Below are positions 2,117 to 54,456 of a stretch of DNA of 64,000 nt, piece by piece. The notes beneath the pieces are model-generated. The model was not told the DNA's origin and did no database searches. It saw nothing but the letters and a program-made list of their open reading frames with translations. How positions within the stretch are numbered: position 1 is the first letter of the stretch; every line of letters begins with the position of its first letter. The position numbers were made by a program, and so were the translations under genes. The DNA comes from an uncultured Jannaschia sp. (GTDB taxonomy: Bacteria; Pseudomonadota; Alphaproteobacteria; Rhodobacterales; Rhodobacteraceae), in assembly GCA_947494145.1 (NCBI GenBank), contig CANLTZ010000002.1:186001-250000 (forward strand), given 5' to 3'.

Positions 2117-4111
2117 ATGAAATGGCTGTTTCGCATCGCTGCCACGCTTGTGACGCTTGTCGTCGTGGCCGTCGCAGTTCTGTTCCTGATCCCCGCCGAA
2201 CGGGTCGCGGGCCTGGCCGCGGACCAGTTCGAGGCGGCAACGGGCCGCAGCCTGACTATCGAGGGCCCGGTGCGCGCCACGCTCTGGCCGCGCCTGGGCG
2301 TGCGGGCGCAAGGCATCCGCATCGCCAATGCCGAGTGGTCGGATCGTGGCCCCCTGCTGGAAGCAGACGCGCTGGAAGTCGGCGTGGCGCTCAGTTCCGT
2401 CATGGGCGACACGGTGCAGGTGGAATCGCTCGTCATCGACGGCGCGCGCCTGACGTTGGAACGCCGCGTGGATGGCAGCGCCAATTGGGACTTCGACACA
2501 CCGCCCTCGGACGCCACGGCATCGTCGAACAGTGGCGGCAGCAGTCGCGACATCGCCATCGACCGCGCGATGCTGCGCGGCGCCGAAATCACCTGGGTCG
2601 ACCAGCAAGCGGGCACCGACCTGAACCTGCGGGCTGTGGATGTGACCGCTACGACCGAAGGCGACGCGCTGGCCTTGGACCTGTCGGCCCTGCTCAACGG
2701 CCAGGCGGTGTCGCTCAATGCGTCCGTCGCCGGGTTGGAGCCGCTTCTCGACGGCGCCTTGACCCCCGTTACGGCAATGATCTCGGCGGGGGAATCGCGT
2801 ATCACAATCGAAGGCCGTGCCGATATCGACCCCACGTCCTTCGAGGGCCGGATCGACGCGCGCAGCAGCGACCGCTTCGCGGCACTGGCCGCCCTGGATA
2901 TCGCGCCGCCCGATCTGCCGCAGGGGCTTGGGCAAGGCGCCATCGGGTTTGAGGCCGCACTGACGCTCGCCCCCGCTGGCACCTTGCACTTGCGCGATAT
3001 GGTTCTGGAACTCGACCGCAACCGGCTTTCGGGTGCGCTCGACATCGACCCGTCGGGCGACCGCCCCCGCATCTCCGGCAGCTTGGCGGCCGATGCGCTG
3101 GACCTGACGGGTCTCAGCCGTGAAGGCCAGGGCGGTGAAACGGCCTTGGTGGCTGAGGCGGGCTGGGGGCAGGAGGCCATCGACGTCTCGGGTCTGTTTG
3201 CAGCCGACGCCGATCTGACCTTCGCGTCGGGCACAATCACTTTGGGCGATGCCACCCTGGATGAATTGCGCGCGCGCGTTACGCTCGACAATGGGCGCGC
3301 GGTGCTGACCTTCCAGCCGCTTCTGGCCTATGGCGGCAGCGTGACGGGCGATGTGGTCATCAATGGCCGCGGTGGTCTGTCTTCCCGCGCCAATCTGGAC
3401 CTGCAAGGCCTGCAAATGCAGCCTTTCCTGACTGAGTTTGCCGATTTCGACCGGCTGGTGGGCCAAGCCGACCTGAGCCTGCGCCTGCTGGGCGTGGGCG
3501 CCACGGCCCAGGCGCTGATGGACAGTCTGGAAGGCTCGGCTTCGGTGGCCATGGGCCAGGGGGAGCTTTTGGGCCTCGATATCGGGGGCATGGTCCGCAC
3601 CCTGGATCTGGGGTTTCGGGGTGAGGGACAGAAGACGATCTTCGACGGCCTGTCTGGGTCCTGGACGGTGACCAATGGCGTGGCGCGCGGAGAGGACTTC
3701 CAACTGGACGCGCCCTATTTGGCCGTCAGTGCCTCGGGTGATATCGACCTTGGCGCCCAGACCCTCGATTACAGCTTGTTGCCCACGCTGCGCCGCGATG
3801 CCCGCGAAGATGGCTTCACCGTGCCGATCCTGATGGATGGCCCCTGGTCCGACCCCCGTATCCGCCCCGATCTGGAGGCCCTGGCCCGCCAGCGCCTGGC
3901 CGTCACGGCCCGTGAAGAAGCCGCCCGCCTGGAAGAGCGCGTCCGTGAAGAGGCCGAGGCCGCGCGCCGCGCCGCCGAAGACGCCGCCCGTCAGCGCCTG
4001 GCAGAGGAACTGGACGTCGAGGCCGAAAGCCTCGACAGCCGCGAAGCCATCGAGGACGCGATCCGCAACCGCGTCGAAAGTGAACTGCTGGACCTTCTGG
4101 GCAATCGCTGA
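2117..4111 (+). CDS. AsmA family protein
   Basis: A 664-residue protein of the AsmA/TamB-like superfamily, thought to act in lipid or outer-membrane homeostasis from the inner membrane. Residues about 4-27 form one N-terminal membrane anchor (LFRIAATLVTLVVVAVAVLF), and the rest is predicted periplasmic, rich in short beta repeats typical of the AsmA groove. It has the usual 'AGLAADQFEAATGRSLTIEG' start and the C-terminal AsmA_2 type segment around residues 430-575 (LSLRLLGVG, ARGEDFQLDAPYLAVSASGDIDLGAQTLDY). The last about 85 residues are an Ala/Glu/Arg-rich helix, probably coiled coil. It is followed at 66 bases by psd-pssA, which fits a membrane-lipid context. Confidence 0.9.
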   Translation: MKWLFRIAATLVTLVVVAVAVLFLIPAERVAGLAADQFEAATGRSLTIEGPVRATLWPRLGVRAQGIRIANAEWSDRGPLLEADALEVGVALSSVMGDTVQVESLVIDGARLTLERRVDGSANWDFDTPPSDATASSNSGGSSRDIAIDRAMLRGAEITWVDQQAGTDLNLRAVDVTATTEGDALALDLSALLNGQAVSLNASVAGLEPLLDGALTPVTAMISAGESRITIEGRADIDPTSFEGRIDARSSDRFAALAALDIAPPDLPQGLGQGAIGFEAALTLAPAGTLHLRDMVLELDRNRLSGALDIDPSGDRPRISGSLAADALDLTGLSREGQGGETALVAEAGWGQEAIDVSGLFAADADLTFASGTITLGDATLDELRARVTLDNGRAVLTFQPLLAYGGSVTGDVVINGRGGLSSRANLDLQGLQMQPFLTEFADFDRLVGQADLSLRLLGVGATAQALMDSLEGSASVAMGQGELLGLDIGGMVRTLDLGFRGEGQKTIFDGLSGSWTVTNGVARGEDFQLDAPYLAVSASGDIDLGAQTLDYSLLPTLRRDAREDGFTVPILMDGPWSDPRIRPDLEALARQRLAVTAREEAARLEERVREEAEAARRAAEDAARQRLAEELDVEAESLDSREAIEDAIRNRVESELLDLLGNR

Positions 4112-44713: not shown

Positions 44714-45961
44714 TCACCCCAAAGCCAACTCGCCCGCCCGAACCCCCGACCGGATCGCCGCTTCCAACGTCGCTGGCAGGCCGGTATCGGTATGATCGCC
44801 AGCCAGCCAAAGGTTTGGCCAAGGCGTGCGCGCATCGTGGCGGCGCGCGGCTCCCGTGGGGGATTGGTCTGGCGTGGCCGCGCGTTCGCGCAGCAGCCGC
44901 GCTGTGGGCATGGTGGCAGGCACCGCCCCGCCATGGGCCGCGATGGCCCGGGAGACGTCTGACCAGAGCCGCGCCAAGGCCGCGTCGCGGGGCAGGTCGG
45001 CCAGAGGCGACGCCTCCTCCGCCGAGACGGTCACCGACACGACATCGCCCCGGCGGAATAGCCAATGGGCGTCGCAGCCCAGAAGCGCCATGAAGGGCGG
45101 CAGGGCATTGTCGGGGGCAAGGAAATGGGCGTTCAGGATGGCGCGACCCGGCTTTGGCAGGGTGTGTTGCGGCAGAAGTCCCGCGGCTTGACGCGGCGGG
45201 ACGGCGAGGATGGCATCATCATCTGGGCCAAGCCTGTGGGTGGTCTCGGCGGTTTGGATCGCGTCAAGCCGGGCGCCCCCATCGAGCGCGGTCACCGCTG
45301 TGCGGTAGGTGATGGGCACAACCCGGGTGGCCAGCACGTCAAGTGCAGGGTCGATCAGGGCGGGCCCTAGCCCCTGGGGCGCCAGAACCGGACGTGCGGC
45401 GGCGGCGCCCTTGGCGAAGCTGCGCAAGATGGCGGCGCGCAGCAGGGGGGCGGAGCCGGTTTCGGGTGGCTCATTTAGGACGGCGCGGCACATCGGGTCC
45501 CAGAAGCGGTCGAAGGCTGGGCCGGGCGCCATAATCTGTCCGATGGTCCGCCCGGCGGGCGCCACCAATAGCCGTGCCATGTCCCGCGCCAGCGCGGCGA
45601 CCGACACGCCCGGAGGGCGTGCGCCCTTCGCCAGAGCCCCGAAGGGGCCATCGCCTGGACGCACGGTCCAGGCTTCGCCGGAGGCGAGGTCCAGGAAGGG
45701 AAACGCCGACTCTTCCATGTGCAACGCATCGGCGGCGCCGATGCGGTCGGCCCAATCCAGCACCGCGCGGTTGGCCGACAGGATCAGGTGATTGCCGTTG
45801 TCGATCAGCCGCCCCAGCTTGTCGTCCCGGTACGACCGGCAGCGCCCGCCCGCCTTGGGCGAGGCTTCCAGCACGCGCACCGCGCGGCCCCGGGCCGACA
45901 GATGCTCAGCCGCGACCAGGCCCGCGAGGCCCGCGCCGATGACGAAGGTTGTCCCGCTCAC
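44714..45961 (-). CDS. hpnE: hydroxysqualene dehydroxylase HpnE
   Basis: A 415-residue FAD-dependent amine-oxidase-fold enzyme that reduces hydroxysqualene to squalene, the third step of the HpnCDE route. It has the dinucleotide motif 'TFVIGAGLAGLVAAEHLSARG' (parts), 'GGRCRSYRDDKLGRLIDNGNH', and the C-terminal FAD contact 'NLWLAGDHTDTGLPATLEAAIRSG'. These match HpnE better than CrtI because of the short substrate domain and 'NGNH'. It begins at a GTG overlapping the hpnD stop (GTGA). No squalene-hopene cyclase is adjacent; divergent carotenoid-type genes are. Confidence 0.92.
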   Translation of the reverse strand: MSGTTFVIGAGLAGLVAAEHLSARGRAVRVLEASPKAGGRCRSYRDDKLGRLIDNGNHLILSANRAVLDWADRIGAADALHMEESAFPFLDLASGEAWTVRPGDGPFGALAKGARPPGVSVAALARDMARLLVAPAGRTIGQIMAPGPAFDRFWDPMCRAVLNEPPETGSAPLLRAAILRSFAKGAAAARPVLAPQGLGPALIDPALDVLATRVVPITYRTAVTALDGGARLDAIQTAETTHRLGPDDDAILAVPPRQAAGLLPQHTLPKPGRAILNAHFLAPDNALPPFMALLGCDAHWLFRRGDVVSVTVSAEEASPLADLPRDAALARLWSDVSRAIAAHGGAVPATMPTARLLRERAATPDQSPTGAARRHDARTPWPNLWLAGDHTDTGLPATLEAAIRSGVRAGELALG

Positions 45962-46824
45962 CCCGGTCGAGCCACCGTGACCACGCCGTCGAGCAGCTTG
46001 CCCAGCCGCGACCGGCGGGGCGGGGGCTTGGACCAATCGGCCTCCCAACGGGCGAGCAGACGCTCATAGGGGCCCATCATCATGAGCGCGGGCAGCAGGG
46101 GCGTGCGACTATGTGCCGGGATTTCCACCGTGGCCGCGTCGAAGGCGGCGCGCGCCTCGCGGCCCAGGGCGGCGCGGGCGCGCGGCAGGCCCGGGTGCCT
46201 TGCCACGGCCTGGGGGTCTGCGGGCAGCCCGGCCTCGGCCAAGACATGGGCGGGCAGATAGAGCCGCCCCATGGCGGCATCGGCCTCCACATCGCGCAGG
46301 ATGTTGGTCATTTGCAGCCCGCGCGCCAGGCTCAGCGCGAAGCGTTCAGACGGGGCGCCGCACCAGGCGCCGAAACAGCGCATGGACAGGATGCCTACGG
46401 CGCCTGCCACGCGGCGAATATAGGCGGCCAGTTCTTCGGCGGAGGGGGCGATGATGGATCGCGCATCCATGCGCATCCCGTCCAGGATCAGCATGAATTC
46501 CTGACGCGGCAGCTCCAGCCAATCCGCGGCATGGGCGATTTCGGCGCCGATGGCGGTGTGGGGACGGCCTTGGAAGACCTCGTCCATCTCAGCCTCCCAT
46601 CGGTCCAGCAGCTCGGCGCGCTGACGCGTGCAATCAGAGCCCGGCGCATCGCCATCGGCGATGTCGTCCACGGCGCGGCAGAAGGCGTAGACGGCGTGGA
46701 TCGCCCGGCGGCGGGTTTCGGGCAGGATGCGCATGCCTGCCGCGAAGCTCGACCCAGCAGAGGCCACGACGCGGCGGACCTCGGCCATGTCCTGTGGCGG
46801 GGTGCTGGCGGGCGCGAAACTCAT
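45958..46824 (-). CDS. hpnD: presqualene diphosphate synthase HpnD
   Basis: A 288-residue trans-isoprenyl synthase condensing two farnesyl diphosphates to presqualene diphosphate. Both Asp-rich motifs are intact: 'FCRAVDDIAD' near residue 50 and 'QMTNILRDVEAD' near 170, with 'GRLYLP' after the second as in squalene and phytoene synthases. It could be misnamed CrtB, but the hpnC and hpnE partners on both sides decide for HpnD. The ATG overlaps the hpnC stop (ATGA) and the stop overlaps hpnE, so all three are translationally coupled. Confidence 0.93.
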   Translation of the reverse strand: MSFAPASTPPQDMAEVRRVVASAGSSFAAGMRILPETRRRAIHAVYAFCRAVDDIADGDAPGSDCTRQRAELLDRWEAEMDEVFQGRPHTAIGAEIAHAADWLELPRQEFMLILDGMRMDARSIIAPSAEELAAYIRRVAGAVGILSMRCFGAWCGAPSERFALSLARGLQMTNILRDVEADAAMGRLYLPAHVLAEAGLPADPQAVARHPGLPRARAALGREARAAFDAATVEIPAHSRTPLLPALMMMGPYERLLARWEADWSKPPPRRSRLGKLLDGVVTVARPG

Positions 46825-47696
46825 GTGAGGGCCGCCCAGAGGCCCCGCGCCCCTGCTTTCACAAAATCCGCACGCCGCAGCGCCACCCGGCCCGCTAGGG
46901 GGTCGCCCTTGCGCAGCAGGATCGCGAGGCGGTTGGCCAGGGCCAGCGTGGCCGCAGCTTGGCCGCGCAGGCCCCGCGCGCGGATCAGTCCGGGCAAGGG
47001 GGCGGCCGCGCGCAGCAAGTCGTCGGTTGCATCCAGCGTGCGGCCCATCACCTCGGCCAAGGCAGGCGGCAAGGCAGGCGCGGTCAGGTCGGCATCCTTG
47101 GCGCCTGCCTCGGCCATCCAGTCGCCGGGCAGGTAGCGGCGGCCCAGATCGCGGTAATCGTCGCCCATATCTTGCAGGTGGTTGAGCACTTGCAGCGCGG
47201 CGCAAAGCGCGTCGGACGGCGCGTAGGTGGCTGCGTCTTCGCCGTGGATGACCAGCAGGAAGCGACCCACGGGCGCGGCTGAGGCGTCGCAATAGTCCAT
47301 CAGGTCGGCCCAATCGGTGCAGGCGATGCCGCCTGCGTCACGGCGGAAGGCCCCTAGCAGCTTCAGGGCGGCAGCGGTCGCAGCGGGATCCGTATCGCAG
47401 AGCGCGTGGTGTAGCGCGGCACCCGGGCCAGAGCCTTCGCCGGTCAAAAGCTCGTGTTCCAAGGTGGCGACGCGCGCCAAGCGCGTGTCCGGCGTCGCCT
47501 CCGCGTCATCGGCGGCATCATCTGCGCTGCGGGCATAGCGATAGAATGCCACAACCTGCGCCCGCTGGGCCTTGGGCAGAAGCCAAGACGCGACGGGAAA
47601 ATTCTCAGCCGCAGCCGCACGTTCCAACGCCGCAACCGCGGCGGGAGAGGGGGCAGCCGAGGCGCCTTGACTTGAGGTTACTTGCACGGAGGCCAT
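46821..47696 (-). CDS. hpnC: hydroxysqualene synthase HpnC
   Basis: A 291-residue trans-isoprenyl-synthase-fold enzyme that converts presqualene diphosphate to hydroxysqualene. The first Asp motif is 'YRYARSADDAADD', the second 'LNHLQDMGDDYRDLGRRYLP', both in the HpnC style. The N terminus has 'AAAAENFPVASWLLPKAQRAQV', a typical HpnC opening. I chose the ATG at 47696; a TTG at 47750 is also in frame. It is first in hpnCDE and divergent from the DUF2141/carotenoid genes across 75 bases, so both halves may share one control region. Confidence 0.93.
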   Translation of the reverse strand: MASVQVTSSQGASAAPSPAAVAALERAAAAENFPVASWLLPKAQRAQVVAFYRYARSADDAADDAEATPDTRLARVATLEHELLTGEGSGPGAALHHALCDTDPAATAAALKLLGAFRRDAGGIACTDWADLMDYCDASAAPVGRFLLVIHGEDAATYAPSDALCAALQVLNHLQDMGDDYRDLGRRYLPGDWMAEAGAKDADLTAPALPPALAEVMGRTLDATDDLLRAAAPLPGLIRARGLRGQAAATLALANRLAILLRKGDPLAGRVALRRADFVKAGARGLWAALT

Positions 47697-47771
47697 GCTG
47701 AACAATCCGTTCTCGCGTGACAACCGTTCCCTTCGTTCTAAATCGCCCAATCATCGGGTGAAGGGAGAAAT

Positions 47772-48173
47772 ATGAGACTTGTCATGACCCTGTTTCTTGG
47801 TTTGGCCACCCAGGCCGCCGCCGGGGACATTTCGGTGGATGTGACCAATTTGCGCTCCGTCCAGGGGGATATCCGCGTGGCGATCTGCCCCCGCGACACC
47901 TTTACCAAACCTACATGCGCCCATCGCGCCAGTGCGCCTGCCTCGGCAGGACGCGTGGTTGTGCGCGGTGTGCCTGCGGGCACCTATGCGGTGCAGGCCT
48001 TTCACGATGAAAACGGCGATGGCGATCTGAACCGCCGGGGTTTTCGGGTCAGCGAAGGGCTGGCTTTTTCCAATGACGCCCGCATCCGCTTTGGTCCGCC
48101 CCGCTTTCGCGACGCGGCGATCGAGGTGACCGGGGATGCGGCACTGACGCTCAACATGAGGTATTACGAATGA
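47772..48173 (+). CDS. DUF2141 domain secreted protein
   Basis: A 133-residue secreted protein: signal peptide 'RLVMTLFLGLATQAAAG' (1-18), then a beta-sandwich DUF2141 domain with 'ISVDVTNLRSVQGDIRVAIC', 'GVPAGTYAVQAFHDENGDGDLNRRGF' (parts; a Ca-loop-like DENGDGDL) and 'DAALTLNMRY' end. The function is unknown; such genes often sit beside terpenoid or carotenoid genes. GAAGGGAG precedes the ATG. It overlaps the following desaturase gene by 4 bases, so it is the lead gene of the plus-strand carotenoid unit. Confidence 0.88.
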   Translation: MRLVMTLFLGLATQAAAGDISVDVTNLRSVQGDIRVAICPRDTFTKPTCAHRASAPASAGRVVVRGVPAGTYAVQAFHDENGDGDLNRRGFRVSEGLAFSNDARIRFGPPRFRDAAIEVTGDAALTLNMRYYE

Positions 48174-49717
48174 ACGCAATCACGGACGGACAGGCGCGGC
48201 GTGTCGTGGTCATCGGGGCCGGGCCCGGGGGGCTTGCCGCGGCCATGTTGCTGCGCGCCTCGGGCGCCCATGTGACCCTGCTGGAAAAATCGGACCGCGT
48301 GGGCGGTCGCACGGCGAGCTTCACGCAAGATGGCTTCACCTTCGATTACGGGCCGACGTTTTACCTGTACCCCGAAGTGCTGCGCGAGATTTTCGCCGCC
48401 TGCGGGCGGTCGTTGGATGAGGAAGTGGATTTGCGCCGCCTCGACCCGATGTACCGGCTGCAATTCGACAATGGCAACACGTTCGACGCCACCGCCGATG
48501 TGGAGCGTTTGACGGCCGAAGCCGCGCGCATCAGCCCCGAAGACGCGCCCAACGTTCACAAATACCTGACGGAGAACTCTGACAAGTTCGACGTGTTCAA
48601 ACCCATCCTGCAACGCCCTTTCAACGGGCCGCAGGACCTGTTCAAAATGGATATGCTGCGGGCCTTCCCGCTGTTCCGGCCCTGGCTGACGGTCGACCAG
48701 GATCTGCGGCGCTGGTTCAAGCATCCCGACCTGCGTCTGGCTTTCAGCTTCCAGTCCAAATATCTGGGCATGTCGCCCTTTAAGTGCCCGTCACTGTTCA
48801 CGATTGTGGCCCATGTGGAATACGGCTTCGGCGTCTTCCACCCCATTGGCGGCTGCAACGCGATCCCGCGGGCCATGGCGCGCGTGGCGACCGAGATGGG
48901 CGTCGAAATCCGGCTGAGCGAAGGCGCCGAGGAAATCGAATTCGACGGTCGCCAGGCCCGCGCCGTGCGCACCGAGGCGGATACGATCCCGGCGGATGCG
49001 GTGGTGGTGAATGGCGATTTCGCCTCGACCATCCCGAAGCTCATTCCCAATGCCAAGCGGAAGCGCTGGACGGACCGGAAGATCGACAAGAAGAAGTTCA
49101 GCTGCTCGACCTTCATGCTTTATCTCGGCATTGAGGGCACGCTAGATGACATGCATCACCACACGATCTTCCTTTCCGAAGACTACCTGCACAACATCCA
49201 GGAAATCGATGAGGGCCGCGCCCCACAGGAACCTACGATCTACGTCCAGAATGCGGGTGTGACCGACCCGACCCTGGCGCCTGAGGGGCATTCGACGCTG
49301 TATGTCTTGGTGCCCACGGGCAACCTGTCGGGCCCTGAGGAGTGGGAAACACTCGGCCCGATCTATCGCGAGAAAATCCTCGACCGGCTGTCCAAGCTGT
49401 CAGGTCACGACATTCGGCCGCGCATTCGCACGGAACGGATGATCACCCCCGCCGATTGGGAAGCACAGATGGGCATCTTCCGCGGTGCCACCTTCAACCT
49501 GGCCCATAATCTCGGCCAGATGCTCCACTGGCGGCCGCGCAACCGGTTCGAAGACGTGGACGGCGTCTACCTGACCGGCGGCGGCACCCATCCGGGCAGC
49601 GGGTTGCCCACCATTTTCGAGAGCGCGAAGATCGCGTCCAAACTGGCGGCGGACGATCTGGGCCTGCCGGAGCCGGGCGCCATCGCGCCCATGACCTTCA
49701 GGGAGGCCGCGGAATGA
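48170..49717 (+). CDS. CrtI/CrtN-type carotenoid desaturase or oxidase (first copy)
   Basis: A 515-residue FAD enzyme of the phytoene-desaturase family: 'VVVIGAGPGGLAAAMLLRAS' at the N terminus, 'EKSDRVGGRTASFTQDGFTFDYGPTFYLYP' (parts), and the C-terminal 'GVYLTGGGTHPGSGLPTIFES' FAD site. In C30 pathways this family includes CrtN (dehydrosqualene/squalene desaturase) and CrtP (diaponeurosporene oxidase). Because hpnCDE makes squalene next door, I infer it desaturates squalene or oxidises its product. Which of the two copies does which step cannot be told by eye. Coupled to DUF2141 and to the next gene by 4-base overlaps. Confidence 0.85.
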   Translation: MNAITDGQARRVVVIGAGPGGLAAAMLLRASGAHVTLLEKSDRVGGRTASFTQDGFTFDYGPTFYLYPEVLREIFAACGRSLDEEVDLRRLDPMYRLQFDNGNTFDATADVERLTAEAARISPEDAPNVHKYLTENSDKFDVFKPILQRPFNGPQDLFKMDMLRAFPLFRPWLTVDQDLRRWFKHPDLRLAFSFQSKYLGMSPFKCPSLFTIVAHVEYGFGVFHPIGGCNAIPRAMARVATEMGVEIRLSEGAEEIEFDGRQARAVRTEADTIPADAVVVNGDFASTIPKLIPNAKRKRWTDRKIDKKKFSCSTFMLYLGIEGTLDDMHHHTIFLSEDYLHNIQEIDEGRAPQEPTIYVQNAGVTDPTLAPEGHSTLYVLVPTGNLSGPEEWETLGPIYREKILDRLSKLSGHDIRPRIRTERMITPADWEAQMGIFRGATFNLAHNLGQMLHWRPRNRFEDVDGVYLTGGGTHPGSGLPTIFESAKIASKLAADDLGLPEPGAIAPMTFREAAE

Positions 49718-51228
49718 GCAAGGTCGGTATCATCGGGGGCGGCTTGGGCGGCCTTGCGGCTGCGGCAACGCTTGCGGCACGGGGCCATGACGTGACCCTG
49801 TTTGAGAAGAACGCCTGGTTGGGCGGCAAGGCGGCGCTGCTGGATGAAGACGGCTTCCGCTTCGATATGGGCCCGACCATCCTGACCATGCCCCGCGTGT
49901 TGGAACGGGTCTTCCAGGAAGCGGGCCGCGACATGGCCGACTATCTGGATCTGCGCCGCCTCGACCCGCAATGGCGCTGCTTTTACGATGATGGCACGGT
50001 GCTGGATTTGCGCGACGACATGGCCAAGTCCAAGGCGGAAATCGCCCACCTGTCGCCCGATGCCGCCGACGGGTTCGAAAAGTTCATGGCCGTGGCTTCG
50101 CGTCTGTCGGACGTGTCCGACCGCTTCTTCTTCTGGAAGTCGGTCGAAGACCTGCGCGATACGATGAACATGAAGGAAAACATGAACGCGTCCACCCTGT
50201 CGGACGTGCTTGCCCTGCGCATGCACCGCACCGTGGCGGGCCAGATCAAGCGCGACGTCAAGGACGCGCGCGTGGCGCAGATGTTGGAACACTTCATCCA
50301 ATATGTGGGCTCATCCCCATTGGCATCGCCCGCGGTTTTGTGTGGCATCGCGCAGATGCAATTGGGCGAAGGCGTCTGGTATCCAATGGGCGGTACCCGC
50401 GCGGTGCCGATGGCGCTGACGCGGCTGGGCGAAGAACTGGGCGTAGATTACCGCACGGGTGTCGATGTCTCCAAGATCGAGATGCAGGGCGGTCGCGCCG
50501 CCGCCATTGTCGCCAACGGGGAACGGATCGTCTTTGACAAGATCGTGTCCAACATGGACTCGGTGCGCACCTACCGCGAACTGGTTGGCGGAAATCCGTG
50601 GGATGAATTCAGTACCAAAAAGCGCGAAGCGGCCTGCTCGGGCATCGTTCTCTATTTGGGGCTCAACAAGGCCTATGACCATCTGGCGCACCATAACTTC
50701 GTCTTCTCCCGCGACCCGAAGGAAGAATTCGGCGCCATCTACGATAAGGGCATGCCCGCCCCGGACCCCACCGCCTATATCGCCGCGCCCGCACGGACCG
50801 AACCTGGCGTGGCCCCCGACGGGGGCGAGGCGCTTTATGTCCTGGTCCACACGCCCCATCTGCGCGACGGCCACGATTGGGCCAAGATGCTGCCCGTTGA
50901 GCGGGCCAAGATCATGTCGAAGCTCGCCCGTAGTGCGGGGATGGAGGATCTGGAAGACCGCATCGTCTTTGAGCGCACGCTGACACCTCAGGACATCCAT
51001 GATCGCTACAAGGTGCTGGATGGCGCCATTTACGGGCTCGTCAGCCATGGCCGCGTGATGGGGGCCTTCAAGCCCGGCAACCGGTCGCGCCAGGTGCCGG
51101 GGCTCTATCTGGCCGGGGGCAGCGCCCATCCGGGGCCGGGGATGCCCATGGCGTTGATGTCAGGCTGGATCGCCGCCGATACGCTGCATCAGGACGCCAC
51201 GGCCAATTCCGTCGTGGCGGCGGAGTGA
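49714..51228 (+). CDS. CrtI/CrtN-type carotenoid desaturase or oxidase (second copy)
   Basis: A 504-residue paralogue of the upstream protein: 'SKVGIIGGGLGGLAAAATLA', 'EKNAWLGGKAALLDEDGFRF', 'DMGPTILTMPRVL', and the FAD end 'GLYLAGGSAHPGPGMPMALMS'. The 'GGKA' and 'GPTILTMP' phrases recall CrtI/CrtN desaturases. It is coupled to the first copy by a 4-base overlap. Two consecutive family members with squalene-forming genes fit a desaturase plus a terminal oxidase (CrtN and CrtP). A C40 role as in CrtI/CrtD is the alternative, but no phytoene synthase, lycopene cyclase or GGPP synthase gene is in the window. Confidence 0.85.
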   Translation: MSKVGIIGGGLGGLAAAATLAARGHDVTLFEKNAWLGGKAALLDEDGFRFDMGPTILTMPRVLERVFQEAGRDMADYLDLRRLDPQWRCFYDDGTVLDLRDDMAKSKAEIAHLSPDAADGFEKFMAVASRLSDVSDRFFFWKSVEDLRDTMNMKENMNASTLSDVLALRMHRTVAGQIKRDVKDARVAQMLEHFIQYVGSSPLASPAVLCGIAQMQLGEGVWYPMGGTRAVPMALTRLGEELGVDYRTGVDVSKIEMQGGRAAAIVANGERIVFDKIVSNMDSVRTYRELVGGNPWDEFSTKKREAACSGIVLYLGLNKAYDHLAHHNFVFSRDPKEEFGAIYDKGMPAPDPTAYIAAPARTEPGVAPDGGEALYVLVHTPHLRDGHDWAKMLPVERAKIMSKLARSAGMEDLEDRIVFERTLTPQDIHDRYKVLDGAIYGLVSHGRVMGAFKPGNRSRQVPGLYLAGGSAHPGPGMPMALMSGWIAADTLHQDATANSVVAAE

Positions 51229-51232
51229 TCGC

Positions 51233-52045
51233 TTGGCGGGGCGAGACATAGATCGCCCTGCCGCCCCTGCGGGCGACCCCGTTGCCTTGCGCTCCGCCCG
51301 CATGGTGCGCTTCTTCAACGGGGTGATGCAGCGGCAGATGCATCGCGGCTTCCGCGCGGCCCGGCTGCTGCGCCCCGGCCTTCCCGATCTCCCGCCCGAC
51401 ACGCCCTTGGTCATCTACTCCAATCACCCCGGCTGGTGGGATCCGGCCTTCTGCATCGTGCTCCAGGCCAATCTGATGCCGGAGCGCGAAGGCTATGGCC
51501 CCATGGAGGCCGCGGCGTTGGAACGCTACGGCTTCATGAAGCGCATCGGCTTATTCGGGGTCGATCCGGGTTCTGCCGCGGGCGCGGCGCGGTTCTTGCG
51601 CGTGGGCGAACATGTCCTGTCGGATCCGCGTCGGGTGATCTGGATGACGGCCCAGGGCCGCTTTGCCGACCCGCGCGAACGCCCGGTGACGCTGCTGGGC
51701 GGTCTGGCGCATCTGATGGCCCGCGTGCCGGGCGCGGTGGCTTTGCCATTGGCGCTGGAATATCCGTTCTGGTCCGAAAAGCGACCCGAAGCGCTGGCGG
51801 GCTTCGGCGCGCCCCTGCGCATCGAAGGCGCCGTGGATGTCTGGCAGGACGCGCTGGAGGCCGGTCTGACCGACGCGCAGGACACGCTGGCCGCCGCTGC
51901 GATGGCCCGCGACCCCGCCGCGTTCGACACGATTGTCGGTGGCGCCCGCGGCGTAGGCGGTATCTATGGCGCCTGGTCGCGGCTGCGCGCGGCCATGGGC
52001 GGGCGACGCTACGACCCCGACCATGTGACGGATACTTCCGCATGA
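51233..52045 (+). CDS. PlsC-like acyltransferase in the carotenoid cluster
   Basis: A 270-residue glycerol-phosphate-acyltransferase-fold protein with the catalytic His-x4-Asp (SNHPGWWDP) and a later 'MTAQGRFADPRERP' block in the place of the PEGTRS substrate motif. No clear membrane helix apart from hydrophobic patches. In this position it is likely to acylate the sugar of a glycosylated carotenoid, doing the job of CrtO in staphyloxanthin-like pathways; this is inference. The annotated start is a TTG five bases after the desaturase stop; an internal ATG (MVRFFNGV) near 51302 is an alternative. Confidence 0.8.
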   Translation: MAGRDIDRPAAPAGDPVALRSARMVRFFNGVMQRQMHRGFRAARLLRPGLPDLPPDTPLVIYSNHPGWWDPAFCIVLQANLMPEREGYGPMEAAALERYGFMKRIGLFGVDPGSAAGAARFLRVGEHVLSDPRRVIWMTAQGRFADPRERPVTLLGGLAHLMARVPGAVALPLALEYPFWSEKRPEALAGFGAPLRIEGAVDVWQDALEAGLTDAQDTLAAAAMARDPAAFDTIVGGARGVGGIYGAWSRLRAAMGGRRYDPDHVTDTSA

Positions 52046-52061
52046 CCGATGGGGGTTTACT

Positions 52062-53186
52062 ATGCTGACATTTCTCGCTTTCGGAGCGCTCTGCCTGGCC
52101 GGGCTCTATGCGGTCGTGACGCTTGTGAACCTGTCGATCTTCCGCGCCCCAGGCCGGATGTTGGACGGCGGAGAGGCGGTTTCCGTCCTCATTCCCGCGC
52201 GCGATGAGGCAGCGAATATCGGCGCCGCAGTGGATGCGGTGCTGGCGCAAGAAGGCGCCACGCTAGAAGTCATCGTGCTCGACGATGGCTCCACTGACGG
52301 GACCGACCGAATTGTCATGGGGCTGGCCAATGGCGATGACCGCGTGCGGCTTGTGCGCGGCGCTGACCTGCCTGCAGGTTGGAACGGCAAGCAACATGCC
52401 TGTCACCAACTGGCCGCCGAGGCGCAACATCCCGTGCTGCTCTTCGTCGATGCCGATGTGCGGCTCGCGCGCGATGCGGTGGCGCGGATGCAAGGCTATA
52501 TGGTGCGCCGCAAGCTGGACCTGGTGTCGGGCTTTCCGCGGCAGATCACCCGCTCCTTTGCGGAACTGGTGACCATCCCGCAGATCCTGGTGCTGCTGCT
52601 GGGTTATCTGCCCTTCCCCATGGCGCGCATCTTCCGCGGCGCAGGCTTCGCGGCGGGCTGCGGCCAACTGATGATGGTGCGCGCCGCGGCTTACACTGCG
52701 GCGGGCGGCCATGCCGCGTTTCGCGACCGGATGCATGACGGGCTGAACCTGCCCCGCAATGTGCGCCTGTCGGGCGGACGCACGGACATTCTGGACGCCA
52801 CGCCCATCGCGCGGGTTCGGATGTACGACAACTGGTCCGATATCTGGCAAGGCTTCACCAAGAACGCGACCGAAGGCATGGCCAAGCCCGTGGCCTTGCC
52901 CATCTGGACGGTGCTTCTGGCGGGCGGACACATCCTGCCGCCGCTTCTCGTATTGCTCGCCTGGGCCGCTGGCGCGGGCCAAGCCTTTGAGGTCGCCCTC
53001 CTGGCCACGGTCCTGGTCTTAGGCGCCCGGGCGGTGCTGGCCTGGAAGGTGCGCCAGTCCTGGTTAGCGGTACTGCTGCACCCCATTGGCGTGGCGGTGA
53101 CCCTCTGGATCCAATGGTCCGCTTTCATGGGCGCCCGCCGCGGCGAACGGGCCGTCTGGCGCGGGCGGACCTACGACGTAAACTGA
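52062..53186 (+). CDS. family 2 glycosyltransferase, CrtQ-like
   Basis: A 374-residue membrane-associated GT-A glycosyltransferase. The N-terminal helix (about 1-27) is followed by 'VSVLIPARDEAANIGAAV', 'EVIVLDDGSTDGTD', 'GWNGKQHACHQL' and the metal-binding 'LLFVDADVRL'. Three to four helices lie at the C terminus (about 160-185, 285-345). This order with 'GWNGKQHAC' is typical of 4,4'-diaponeurosporenoate glycosyltransferase (CrtQ)-like and hopanoid HpnB-like enzymes. Its place after two desaturases and an acyltransferase favours carotenoid glycosylation. GGGGG lies before the ATG. Confidence 0.85.
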   Translation: MLTFLAFGALCLAGLYAVVTLVNLSIFRAPGRMLDGGEAVSVLIPARDEAANIGAAVDAVLAQEGATLEVIVLDDGSTDGTDRIVMGLANGDDRVRLVRGADLPAGWNGKQHACHQLAAEAQHPVLLFVDADVRLARDAVARMQGYMVRRKLDLVSGFPRQITRSFAELVTIPQILVLLLGYLPFPMARIFRGAGFAAGCGQLMMVRAAAYTAAGGHAAFRDRMHDGLNLPRNVRLSGGRTDILDATPIARVRMYDNWSDIWQGFTKNATEGMAKPVALPIWTVLLAGGHILPPLLVLLAWAAGAGQAFEVALLATVLVLGARAVLAWKVRQSWLAVLLHPIGVAVTLWIQWSAFMGARRGERAVWRGRTYDVN

Positions 53187-53210
53187 GACCCGGCCTCACC
53201 TCCGCCTTCT

Positions 53211-53462: not shown

Positions 53463-54456
53463 TCAGGCCCGCCGCTTGCGGCGCCAATGGCCGGGCGGGA
53501 CGCCCATGGCCTTGGTAAAGGCTGCCGTCATGTGGGATTGGCTGGAAAAGCCGCAATCGTGGGCGACATGGGCCAGTGGCTCGGACGTGTTGTCCAGCAT
53601 CTGGCAAACGCGGTCGATGCGCCGCTGGGTCAGATGCCGATGCGGGCTGTCGCCGGTGGCGGCGCGGAAGGCGCGGCTGAAGCGGTATACGTTCATTCCT
53701 GCAAGCTGGGCGAGTTCCGCCATGGGGACCTGTTCGCCCAGGCGGTCCTCCATCACCTCGATGATCCGGGCGAGTGTCTTCGTGTCGAGGGCGCGGGCGC
53801 CGGGATCGGACGGCGTTGTCACCTGACCGGCGAGTCGCAACAGGTTGGCGACGATCATGTAGGCGGAACTGTCGGCATAAAGCGGGCCGGACGGGTTCCC
53901 GGCGGCGGCCTCGTCGGCGAAGTCGGTGACCAGATGGTTCAGAAGCGGGTCGCGGAGCATGCGGGCGTGGAGCGGCTCGGTGTCGAGGGGGCGGGCGGCG
54001 CGGCCGAGGCTGGCCCAGGCCTCGTGGAAAAGGGTGGGGGGCAGGGGCGATCGCGTCGACGTCGAACGCGTCGGCGACGGTGATGGCAGTGGCCTGGTCC
54101 GGCGGGGCCAGGAGCATCTGTCCGGGACGGCCGATATCGTGGAACGTTTCGGCACCTTGGTCGACTTTCAGCCGACCGTGGCCGCGCCGAGCCAGCGTGA
54201 GCATGTATTCGTCGACGGGCGGGTCGCCGACATCGCCCGGCGGGTTGTTGCGGACCTCCACCACGCCGATCCCAAAGGTGCCCACGGCCCGATGGGCGGT
54301 GACATAGGGCGCGTTGGCGTAGGGCGCGTTGGCGTCCAGGCCCGCGGCGACGAGGTCAAGATAGGACGTATCCGCCCGCTTGCGCCGGGTCGAAGACGGC
54401 GCCCGTGGCGGGGACGTCGGAGCGGGGGCTGTCCTACGGCGTGTTCGGGTCGTCAT
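53463..54456 (-). pseudogene. AraC-family regulator gene with a frameshift
   Basis: The N-terminal about 138 residues (MTTRTRRRTAPAPTSPP start at 54456, with GGGGAGGG upstream) are in one frame and include 'FGIGVVEVRNNPPGD' and 'LTLARRGHGRLKVDQG', a cupin-like sensor opening. The rest, with 'LHARMLRDPLLNHLVTDFAD' and the AraC HTH domain ('MAELAQLAGMNVYRFSRAF', 'VAHDCGFSSQSHMTAAFTKA'), is in the +1-shifted frame. Dropping one base from the six-G run at 54036-54041 restores one protein of about 330 residues. A perfect 15-base tandem duplication (54305-54334) repeats NAPYA. Either a true mutation or a sequencing error in the homopolymer. Confidence 0.75.

Follow-up and report, generated by a model that had tools for sequence, protein, structure and literature searches.

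A single-locus candidate gene block for a squalene-derived C30 carotenoid in a Rhodobacteraceae-type genome

Introduction

The closest described systems to the gene block reported here are the squalene-derived pigment pathways of Azospirillum brasilense Sp7 and Methylorubrum extorquens AM1. In A. brasilense, mutants that lack crtNPOQ or hpnCDE have lost the pigment, and squalene builds up in the strain without crtNPOQ (PMC13274349). In M. extorquens, squalene supplied by HpnCDE is converted with CrtN, CrtP, a glycosyltransferase and an acyltransferase into a known product, an acyl-glucosyl diapolycopenedioate with m/z 885.55 [M-H]- (META1p1815-1817, 3663-3665 and 3670; PMC10448405). Deletion and complementation showed that glucosyl diapolycopenedioate is made there by the glycosyltransferase META1p3663 and acylated by the product of the neighbouring gene, the lysophospholipid-type acyltransferase META1p3664, and a search of this species with CrtO gave no homologue (PMC10448405). 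We compared these systems with an eight-gene block at 44714-53186 (about 8.5 kb) of a 64-kb window, i.e. the whole stretch of DNA that was analysed (positions 186001-250000 of contig C2), from a Rhodobacteraceae-type genome of 4.9 Mb (53 contigs, 98% complete).

The block consists of hpnE-hpnD-hpnC on the minus strand and of DUF2141-crtN-crtP-acyltransferase-glycosyltransferase on the plus strand. Orthology to genes of known deletion phenotype, together with predicted folds and genome context, indicates that it very probably encodes a C30 carotenoid pathway that starts from squalene, is of the Azospirillum/Methylorubrum kind, and ends in an acyl-glycosyl pigment. An earlier note, made from the letters of the window, had proposed a locus for a squalene-derived C30 pigment, a proposal that orthology, context and fold support. 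Pathways of this kind have been elucidated before, in other bacteria; the points of interest are the compact one-locus layout, the absence of a cluster aldehyde dehydrogenase (AldH), and the recurrent DUF2141 gene.

Results

The two flavoenzymes, i.e. the crtN-type desaturase (48170-49717, plus strand, 515 aa) and the crtP-type terminal oxidase (49714-51228, plus strand, 504 aa), both match TIGR02734, with 529.2 and 421.1 bits, respectively, at a cut-off of 238.1. Their identities to CrtN and CrtP of A. brasilense Sp7 are 56% and 67%. A maximum-likelihood tree was calculated from 50 rows, comprising 15 of the 80 related loci described below and references, among them five CrtI rows (the genome's own included) and two CrtD rows. 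Sp7 CrtN shares a clade with the first flavoenzyme (98/95), and Sp7 CrtP shares one with the second (84/99). CrtI and CrtD, the genome's own proteins included, form clades apart from both. HpnE, six of the loci and the Cytobacillus row were left out of a second tree, which had 36 rows; here, CrtP from a Staphylococcus pasteuri plasmid stands next to the CrtP type (93/83). The approximately unbiased (AU) test rejected the placement of the CrtP type with CrtI (p 7e-5), of the CrtN type with CrtD (p 0.007), and of the CrtN and CrtP types in a single clade (p 4e-5). The phylogeny that the earlier note had suggested as a check thus places both enzymes outside the CrtI and CrtD clades and with their Sp7 counterparts, and, judged by sequence, they are orthologues of A. 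brasilense CrtN and CrtP.

For the squalene half, hpnE (hydroxysqualene dehydroxylase, 44714-45961, minus strand, 415 aa) exceeds the cut-off of its model (TIGR03467, 303.1 versus 283.05 bits) and is the only gene of the genome to do so; a second hpnE above the cut-off was not found. The assignments of hpnD (presqualene diphosphate synthase, 45958-46824, minus strand, 288 aa) and hpnC (hydroxysqualene synthase, 46821-47696, minus strand, 291 aa) come from a tree in which both cluster with the respective proteins of A. brasilense Sp7 and Sinorhizobium fredii NGR234. Support is 100/100 for the HpnC clade and 93/95 for the HpnD clade, which unites the HpnD proteins of Sp7 and NGR234 and the second HpnD of the genome. 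CrtM-type rows form a separate clade, and the block contains only HpnC and HpnD. Identities to the Sp7 homologues are 47% for HpnC, 39% for HpnD, and 45% for HpnE. A different arrangement was observed on a Microvirga ossetica plasmid (L118), where HpnC and HpnD are apparently fused into one protein of 552 aa, followed by hpnE and ispH, and where crtN and crtP are separated by a methyltransferase gene.

The acyltransferase gene (51233-52045, plus strand) encodes up to 270 aa, the start codon being uncertain. The protein has no Pfam or NCBIfam match up to E 0.001 and no match to PDB sequences up to E 1. Its HX4D motif takes the form HPxWWD without exception in an alignment of 29 sequences; in the wider first alignment, two of seven rows have HPSWWE, i.e. 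E for D. The AlphaFold2 model (predicted local distance difference test, pLDDT, 88.5) resembles PlsC of Thermotoga maritima (5kym; Z 16.1, root-mean-square deviation 2.9, 188 residues aligned) and human GPAT1 (Z 16.4), and its top Foldseek match is the mycobacterial acyltransferase PatA. By motif and predicted fold, the enzyme is a member of the PlsC/lysophospholipid acyltransferase (LPLAT) fold. It is 54.7% identical to its A. brasilense Sp7 homologue. The adjacent glycosyltransferase gene (52062-53186, plus strand, 374 aa) is CrtQ-like and belongs to family 2 (PF00535, 81.1 bits versus a cut-off of 23.3); its product is 52% identical to the Sp7 homologue and 23% identical to the glycosyltransferase of the S. 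pasteuri pigment operon.

A PlsC-fold enzyme in place of the unrelated CrtO, as the earlier note had suggested, is right in kind, as indicated by the fold and by the M. extorquens deletion; this exchange has already been published and is hence not new here (PMC10448405). Judging from gene order, the genes designated crtO and crtQ in A. brasilense (PMC13274349) would be the Sp7 homologues of the acyltransferase and glycosyltransferase genes of the block. On a Cytobacillus spongiae plasmid (L117), genes for a carotenoid biosynthesis protein, for a protein distantly related to the acyltransferase (23%), for a family-2 glycosyltransferase and for a CrtI-family protein stand in a row; this row indicates that carotenoid acylation of the PlsC type may also occur in Bacillota.

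The order crtN-crtP-acyltransferase-glycosyltransferase recurs on plasmid p3 of A. brasilense Sp7, which also has a DUF2141 homologue (46% identity). The Sp7 genes are split into two loci, with hpnCDE on plasmid p1 and crtNPOQ on p3, whereas a single divergent block is present here; moreover, aldH is adjacent in Sp7 and was not found here, and DUF2141 follows the glycosyltransferase gene in Sp7 but heads the crt operon here. With M. extorquens AM1, compared from the published text and not by sequence, the block shares HpnCDE squalene synthesis, CrtN, CrtP, the glycosyltransferase, and a lysophospholipid-type acyltransferase instead of CrtO. The M. extorquens genes lie at more than one locus, with shc beside hpnCDE, and their product is known, whereas that of the present block is predicted (PMC10448405). 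The staphyloxanthin operon crtOPQMN, with the S. pasteuri plasmid as yardstick, has CrtN/CrtP-type oxidations, a family-2 glycosyltransferase and the concept of acylation in common with the block, but it contains CrtM in place of HpnCDE. The gene at the crtO position of this plasmid is annotated as hypothetical and is presumed to be CrtO from its place in the operon; it had no match among the eight block proteins (BLASTP, 1e-3). The crtB, crtI and crtD genes and the crtE candidate, which are C40 genes of the type found in phototrophic Rhodobacterales, encode members of the same enzyme superfamilies; they differ in the C40 backbone, and the block enzymes lie outside the CrtI/CrtD clades.

To estimate the distribution of the block, genomes of 84,980 species were scanned for the acyltransferase family, with seven Alphaproteobacterial proteins as anchors. 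From the 429 relatives obtained, the best 80 were retained; all 80 loci were thus picked by the acyltransferase, and hits under set bit scores were dropped. Among these best 80 of 429 loci, the CrtN type is present in 77, the CrtP type in 78, and the glycosyltransferase in 76. The fractions are smaller for HpnC (39), HpnE (40) and HpnD (24, a lower bound, because fused or divergent HpnC/HpnD proteins may score under a single name), and values of 62 and 33 were obtained for AldH and DUF2141, respectively. Absences may reflect the cut-offs, and 11 of the 18 loci in which AldH was missing span less than 15 kb. By genus name (Palleronia, Jannaschia, Rubellimicrobium, Limimaricola and others), 22 of the 80 loci presumably belong to Rhodobacterales. 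All 22 contain hpnC, hpnD and hpnE.

DNA similarity between the window and the Rhodobacterales loci, which span about 3 kb to the left and up to 9 kb to the right of the block, is restricted to 44734-53195 in 21 of 21 comparisons, the sole exception being a 0.7-kb match elsewhere to L040. The same gene set in dozens of named genomes and the confinement of DNA similarity to the block show that the gene arrangement is not due to chance. The acyltransferase was found in 9 of 394 genomes of the window's own family and in 7 of 385 genomes of the class (the window's genome counted in both), and it is absent from the one other sampled genome of the same genus. In some relatives the block genes are plasmid-borne. 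Its patchy occurrence and sharp edges suggest horizontal movement of the block.

Among the matches listed in a search of titles and abstracts, this cluster was not described for Rhodobacteraceae, Palleronia, Jannaschia, Rubellimicrobium or Roseomonas, and earlier surveys may already include Rhodobacterales. A table passage of a 2025 survey of Alphaproteobacteria shows just Limibaculum, Rhodovulum and Thermohalobaculum among the Rhodobacterales; Jannaschia, Palleronia and Rubellimicrobium stand in a list that is seemingly one of genera without the genes (PMC12583986).

Two further gene families were observed at these loci. A sulfotransferase gene lies directly 3′ of the glycosyltransferase gene in 13 of the 80 loci, i.e. 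L030-L033, L040, L041, L116 (Palleronia sp. LCG004, PF13469) and seven Azospirillum loci (e.g. L052 and L056), which hints at sulfated C30 carotenoids there. In addition, a DUF4126-family gene adjoins the cluster AldH gene in 16 of the 80 loci (L115 and other Azospirillum loci), the copy in L115 scoring slightly under the Pfam cut-off.

The DUF2141 protein (47772-48173, plus strand, 133 aa) matches PF09912 with 80.4 bits (cut-off 24.4). Its N-terminus resembles a signal peptide by eye, and the alignment contains two near-invariant cysteines and a DENxN loop. The model is a confident beta-sandwich (pLDDT 92.8). PDB sequences gave no match up to E 1, and in the fold search no PDB structure reached E 0.001; the best fold match, a DUF4876 protein (Z 8.8 over 84 residues), shares a common beta-sandwich arrangement and gives no functional hint. 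A DUF2141 gene is near the block in 33 of the 80 loci, in several layouts: between hpnC and crtN in Rhodobacterales, directly after the glycosyltransferase gene in A. brasilense (with a 4-base overlap) and Acidisphaera, and beyond the AldH gene in Salinisphaera and other genomes. For comparison, 190 genomes of the class contain 62 matches, the two of the window's genome counted; at a roughly assumed 3 Mb per genome, about 0.2% of 20-kb stretches would be expected to hold one; the loci, being related, do not count as independent cases. All 11 searched Rhodobacterales genomes that carry DUF2141 in the block have no further copy. Against a general role, 8 of the 22 Rhodobacterales loci have no DUF2141 gene in the block, and 9 of 36 searched block-bearing genomes have none at all. 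The second copy of the present genome (C6, around 78038-78364; L105) lies beside a metallophosphoesterase gene, and no carotenoid genes were recognised in the 3.3 kb read there. In Sphingomonadales, a DUF2141 gene of unknown role is found beside crtG (PMC5989583; also PMC9241875). Titles and abstracts yielded no link between DUF2141 and C30 carotenoids. It is conceivable, but doubtful, that DUF2141 proteins are dedicated secreted partners of carotenoid pathways, which might for example bind the glycosylated pigment or place it at the cell surface.

All eight genes and their strands, as predicted in the earlier note, were confirmed from the sequence and, except for the acyltransferase gene, with hidden Markov models, including the head-to-head arrangement, in which 75 bases (47697-47771) separate the ATG of hpnC (47696, minus strand) from that of DUF2141 (47772, plus strand). 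This divergent intergenic region would contain the promoters of both operons. The predicted coupling of most genes by 4-base overlaps applies to four of the six junctions, i.e. hpnC/hpnD, hpnD/hpnE (where the GTG start of hpnE overlaps the hpnD stop), DUF2141/crtN and crtN/crtP; short gaps are present between crtP and the acyltransferase gene and between the latter and the glycosyltransferase gene. The claim that the window has no squalene-hopene cyclase (SHC), phytoene synthase, lycopene cyclase or geranylgeranyl diphosphate synthase agrees with tblastn searches of the window (E 1e-3): the genome's own SHC and CrtE candidate and two CrtY proteins gave no match, and its own CrtB matched hpnC and hpnD only. 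An AraC-type regulator gene lies just beyond the block (53463-54155, minus strand), in DNA that is unlike that of the relatives' loci.

Elsewhere in the genome, genes of two other isoprenoid pathways were found. Contig C4 carries crtB and crtD above the NCBIfam equivalog cut-offs, crtI above the cut-off of the crtI family, and a candidate crtE that, among NCBIfam models, matches farnesyl diphosphate synthase best, with a score under the cut-off. A hopanoid cluster on contig C6 comprises shc (756 bits, cut-off 431), hpnH over its cut-off, and hpnA-, hpnG- and hpnN-like genes together with a second hpnD-like gene, all below their cut-offs. No hpnC or hpnE was found in this cluster (L015, G000:C6:220000-238000). 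The genome has five SQS_PSY genes. The fifth, on C3 (around 288404-288892; L005), scores weakly as HpnD (43.6 versus 278.6 bits) and gives no match to HpnC, so that by these models it is neither. In Rhodobacterales, shc is seemingly rare, according to passages of one survey (PMC12583986).

Discussion

Several results weigh against a squalene-route C30 pathway. In the model search proposed with the earlier note, HpnE and both flavoenzymes exceeded their cut-offs, but HpnC (TIGR03464, 228.6 versus 250.45 bits) and HpnD (TIGR03465, 228.0 versus 278.6 bits) remained below the curated values. A search for the M. extorquens AM1 locus with a 20-base part of a primer (PMC10448405) in 397 genomes of one family, allowing up to two mismatches, did not recover it: the four matches, each with two mismatches, had no block gene within up to 3 kb. 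The genes that the note had named as speaking against its proposal do exist, i.e. shc and a crtB set (crtB, crtI, crtD and a crtE candidate). They do not overturn the proposal, because the flavoenzymes lie outside the CrtI/CrtD clades and all 19 searched Rhodobacterales relatives with the block lack shc. The C40 genes on C4 nevertheless raise the question of whether the flavoenzymes act on C40 substrates, as an additional desaturase and an additional oxidase in phototrophic carotenoid synthesis. The 36-row tree, in which the CrtN type joins CrtI with weak support (75/59), and the AU test, by which the CrtP type is not separated from CrtD at 0.05 (p 0.076), are compatible with such a role; an alternative grouping of the CrtN type with Bacillota CrtN was not rejected either (p 0.35). 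However, both enzymes group with proteins whose deletion blocks the squalene-derived pigment in A. brasilense, and the block brings its own squalene genes and no phytoene synthase. A function in C40 synthesis, weakened by both trees, appears extremely improbable to us. It could also be argued that hpnCDE mainly supply squalene for hopanoids and lie beside the carotenoid genes by chance, so that the pigment genes would take leftover squalene. The C6 cluster, with its shc, its further hopanoid genes and its second hpnD-like gene, would fit this, and the genome has no second recognisable hpnC or hpnE, so that its hopanoids probably depend on the block. Yet shc was found in none of 19 searched Rhodobacterales genomes with the same head-to-head layout (21 were chosen; their completeness is not known), which indicates that hpnCDE are kept in the block where the hopanoid cyclase is not seen, and hpnCDE and the pigment genes are common to those loci as one DNA block. 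The shc of the present genome lies on C6, with none in the window, so that the block lacks the shc of a hopanoid cluster. A purely hopanoid role of HpnCDE is weakened by the relatives, and a mainly hopanoid supply that lies beside the pigment genes by chance seems very unlikely. The block is the only place where recognisable HpnC and HpnE were found, and its squalene is therefore probably shared, i.e. it also feeds the hopanoid pathway.

Genes, orthology and fold argue for the predicted acyl-glycosyl diapocarotenoid, but the acid step is unassigned: no cluster-type AldH was found that would provide the acid from which a glycosyl ester is built. Four cluster AldH types gave no match in the window (tblastn, E 1e-3), a further point against the complete pathway, as is the genome-wide search with the cluster AldH of Jannaschia seosinensis (L028; matches to E 1e-10), which gave at best 34% identity over about 320 residues, no closer than generic family members. 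The other three cluster AldHs, compared only with the nine loci of the genome so found, were no closer to these. The pathway could therefore end before the acid, with an aldehyde- or alcohol-ended diapocarotenoid and any sugar attached via a hydroxyl, which would be compatible with the C30 backbone. Five of the 22 Rhodobacterales loci likewise have no AldH, whereas 17 have one; four of the five are full-length, and the fifth, L048, is a contig of 6.6 kb in which little sequence follows the acyltransferase gene. On the other hand, M. extorquens still makes the acid after deletion of two AldH homologues, and its AldH has not been identified (PMC10448405), so that another enzyme can perform this step. 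Furthermore, the glycosyltransferase and acyltransferase have been retained and are close kin of those in AldH-bearing clusters. A pathway without the acid is thus rather unlikely, in our view. By current evidence, i.e. that from M. extorquens, AldH would not be a defining component of this pathway type, and in this lineage the aldehyde may be oxidised by an unrecognised enzyme or by CrtP itself.

For the squalene-route pathway, we propose that HpnD, HpnC and HpnE would convert farnesyl diphosphate to squalene, which the CrtN-type enzyme would desaturate to a diapocarotenoid, and that the CrtP-type enzyme would oxidise terminal methyl groups to aldehydes. A putative aldehyde dehydrogenase encoded elsewhere would form the acid, the glycosyltransferase would convert it to a glycosyl ester, and acylation of the sugar by the PlsC-fold enzyme would yield an amphipathic membrane pigment, with DUF2141 as a predicted secreted accessory protein. 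Each catalytic step and the exact product in this organism are inferred from gene content, orthology, predicted folds and genome context.

With this block, the known range of the squalene route to C30 pigments now takes in a Rhodobacteraceae-type genome in which genes for C40 carotenoids and hopanoids are present as well, and one organism thus appears to split farnesyl diphosphate and squalene among three products. With hpnCDE, crtNP and the acyltransferase and glycosyltransferase genes at a single locus within 8.5 kb, it lends itself to heterologous expression as a unit. The recurrent DUF2141 gene and the missing AldH are concrete, testable gaps in an otherwise mapped pathway.

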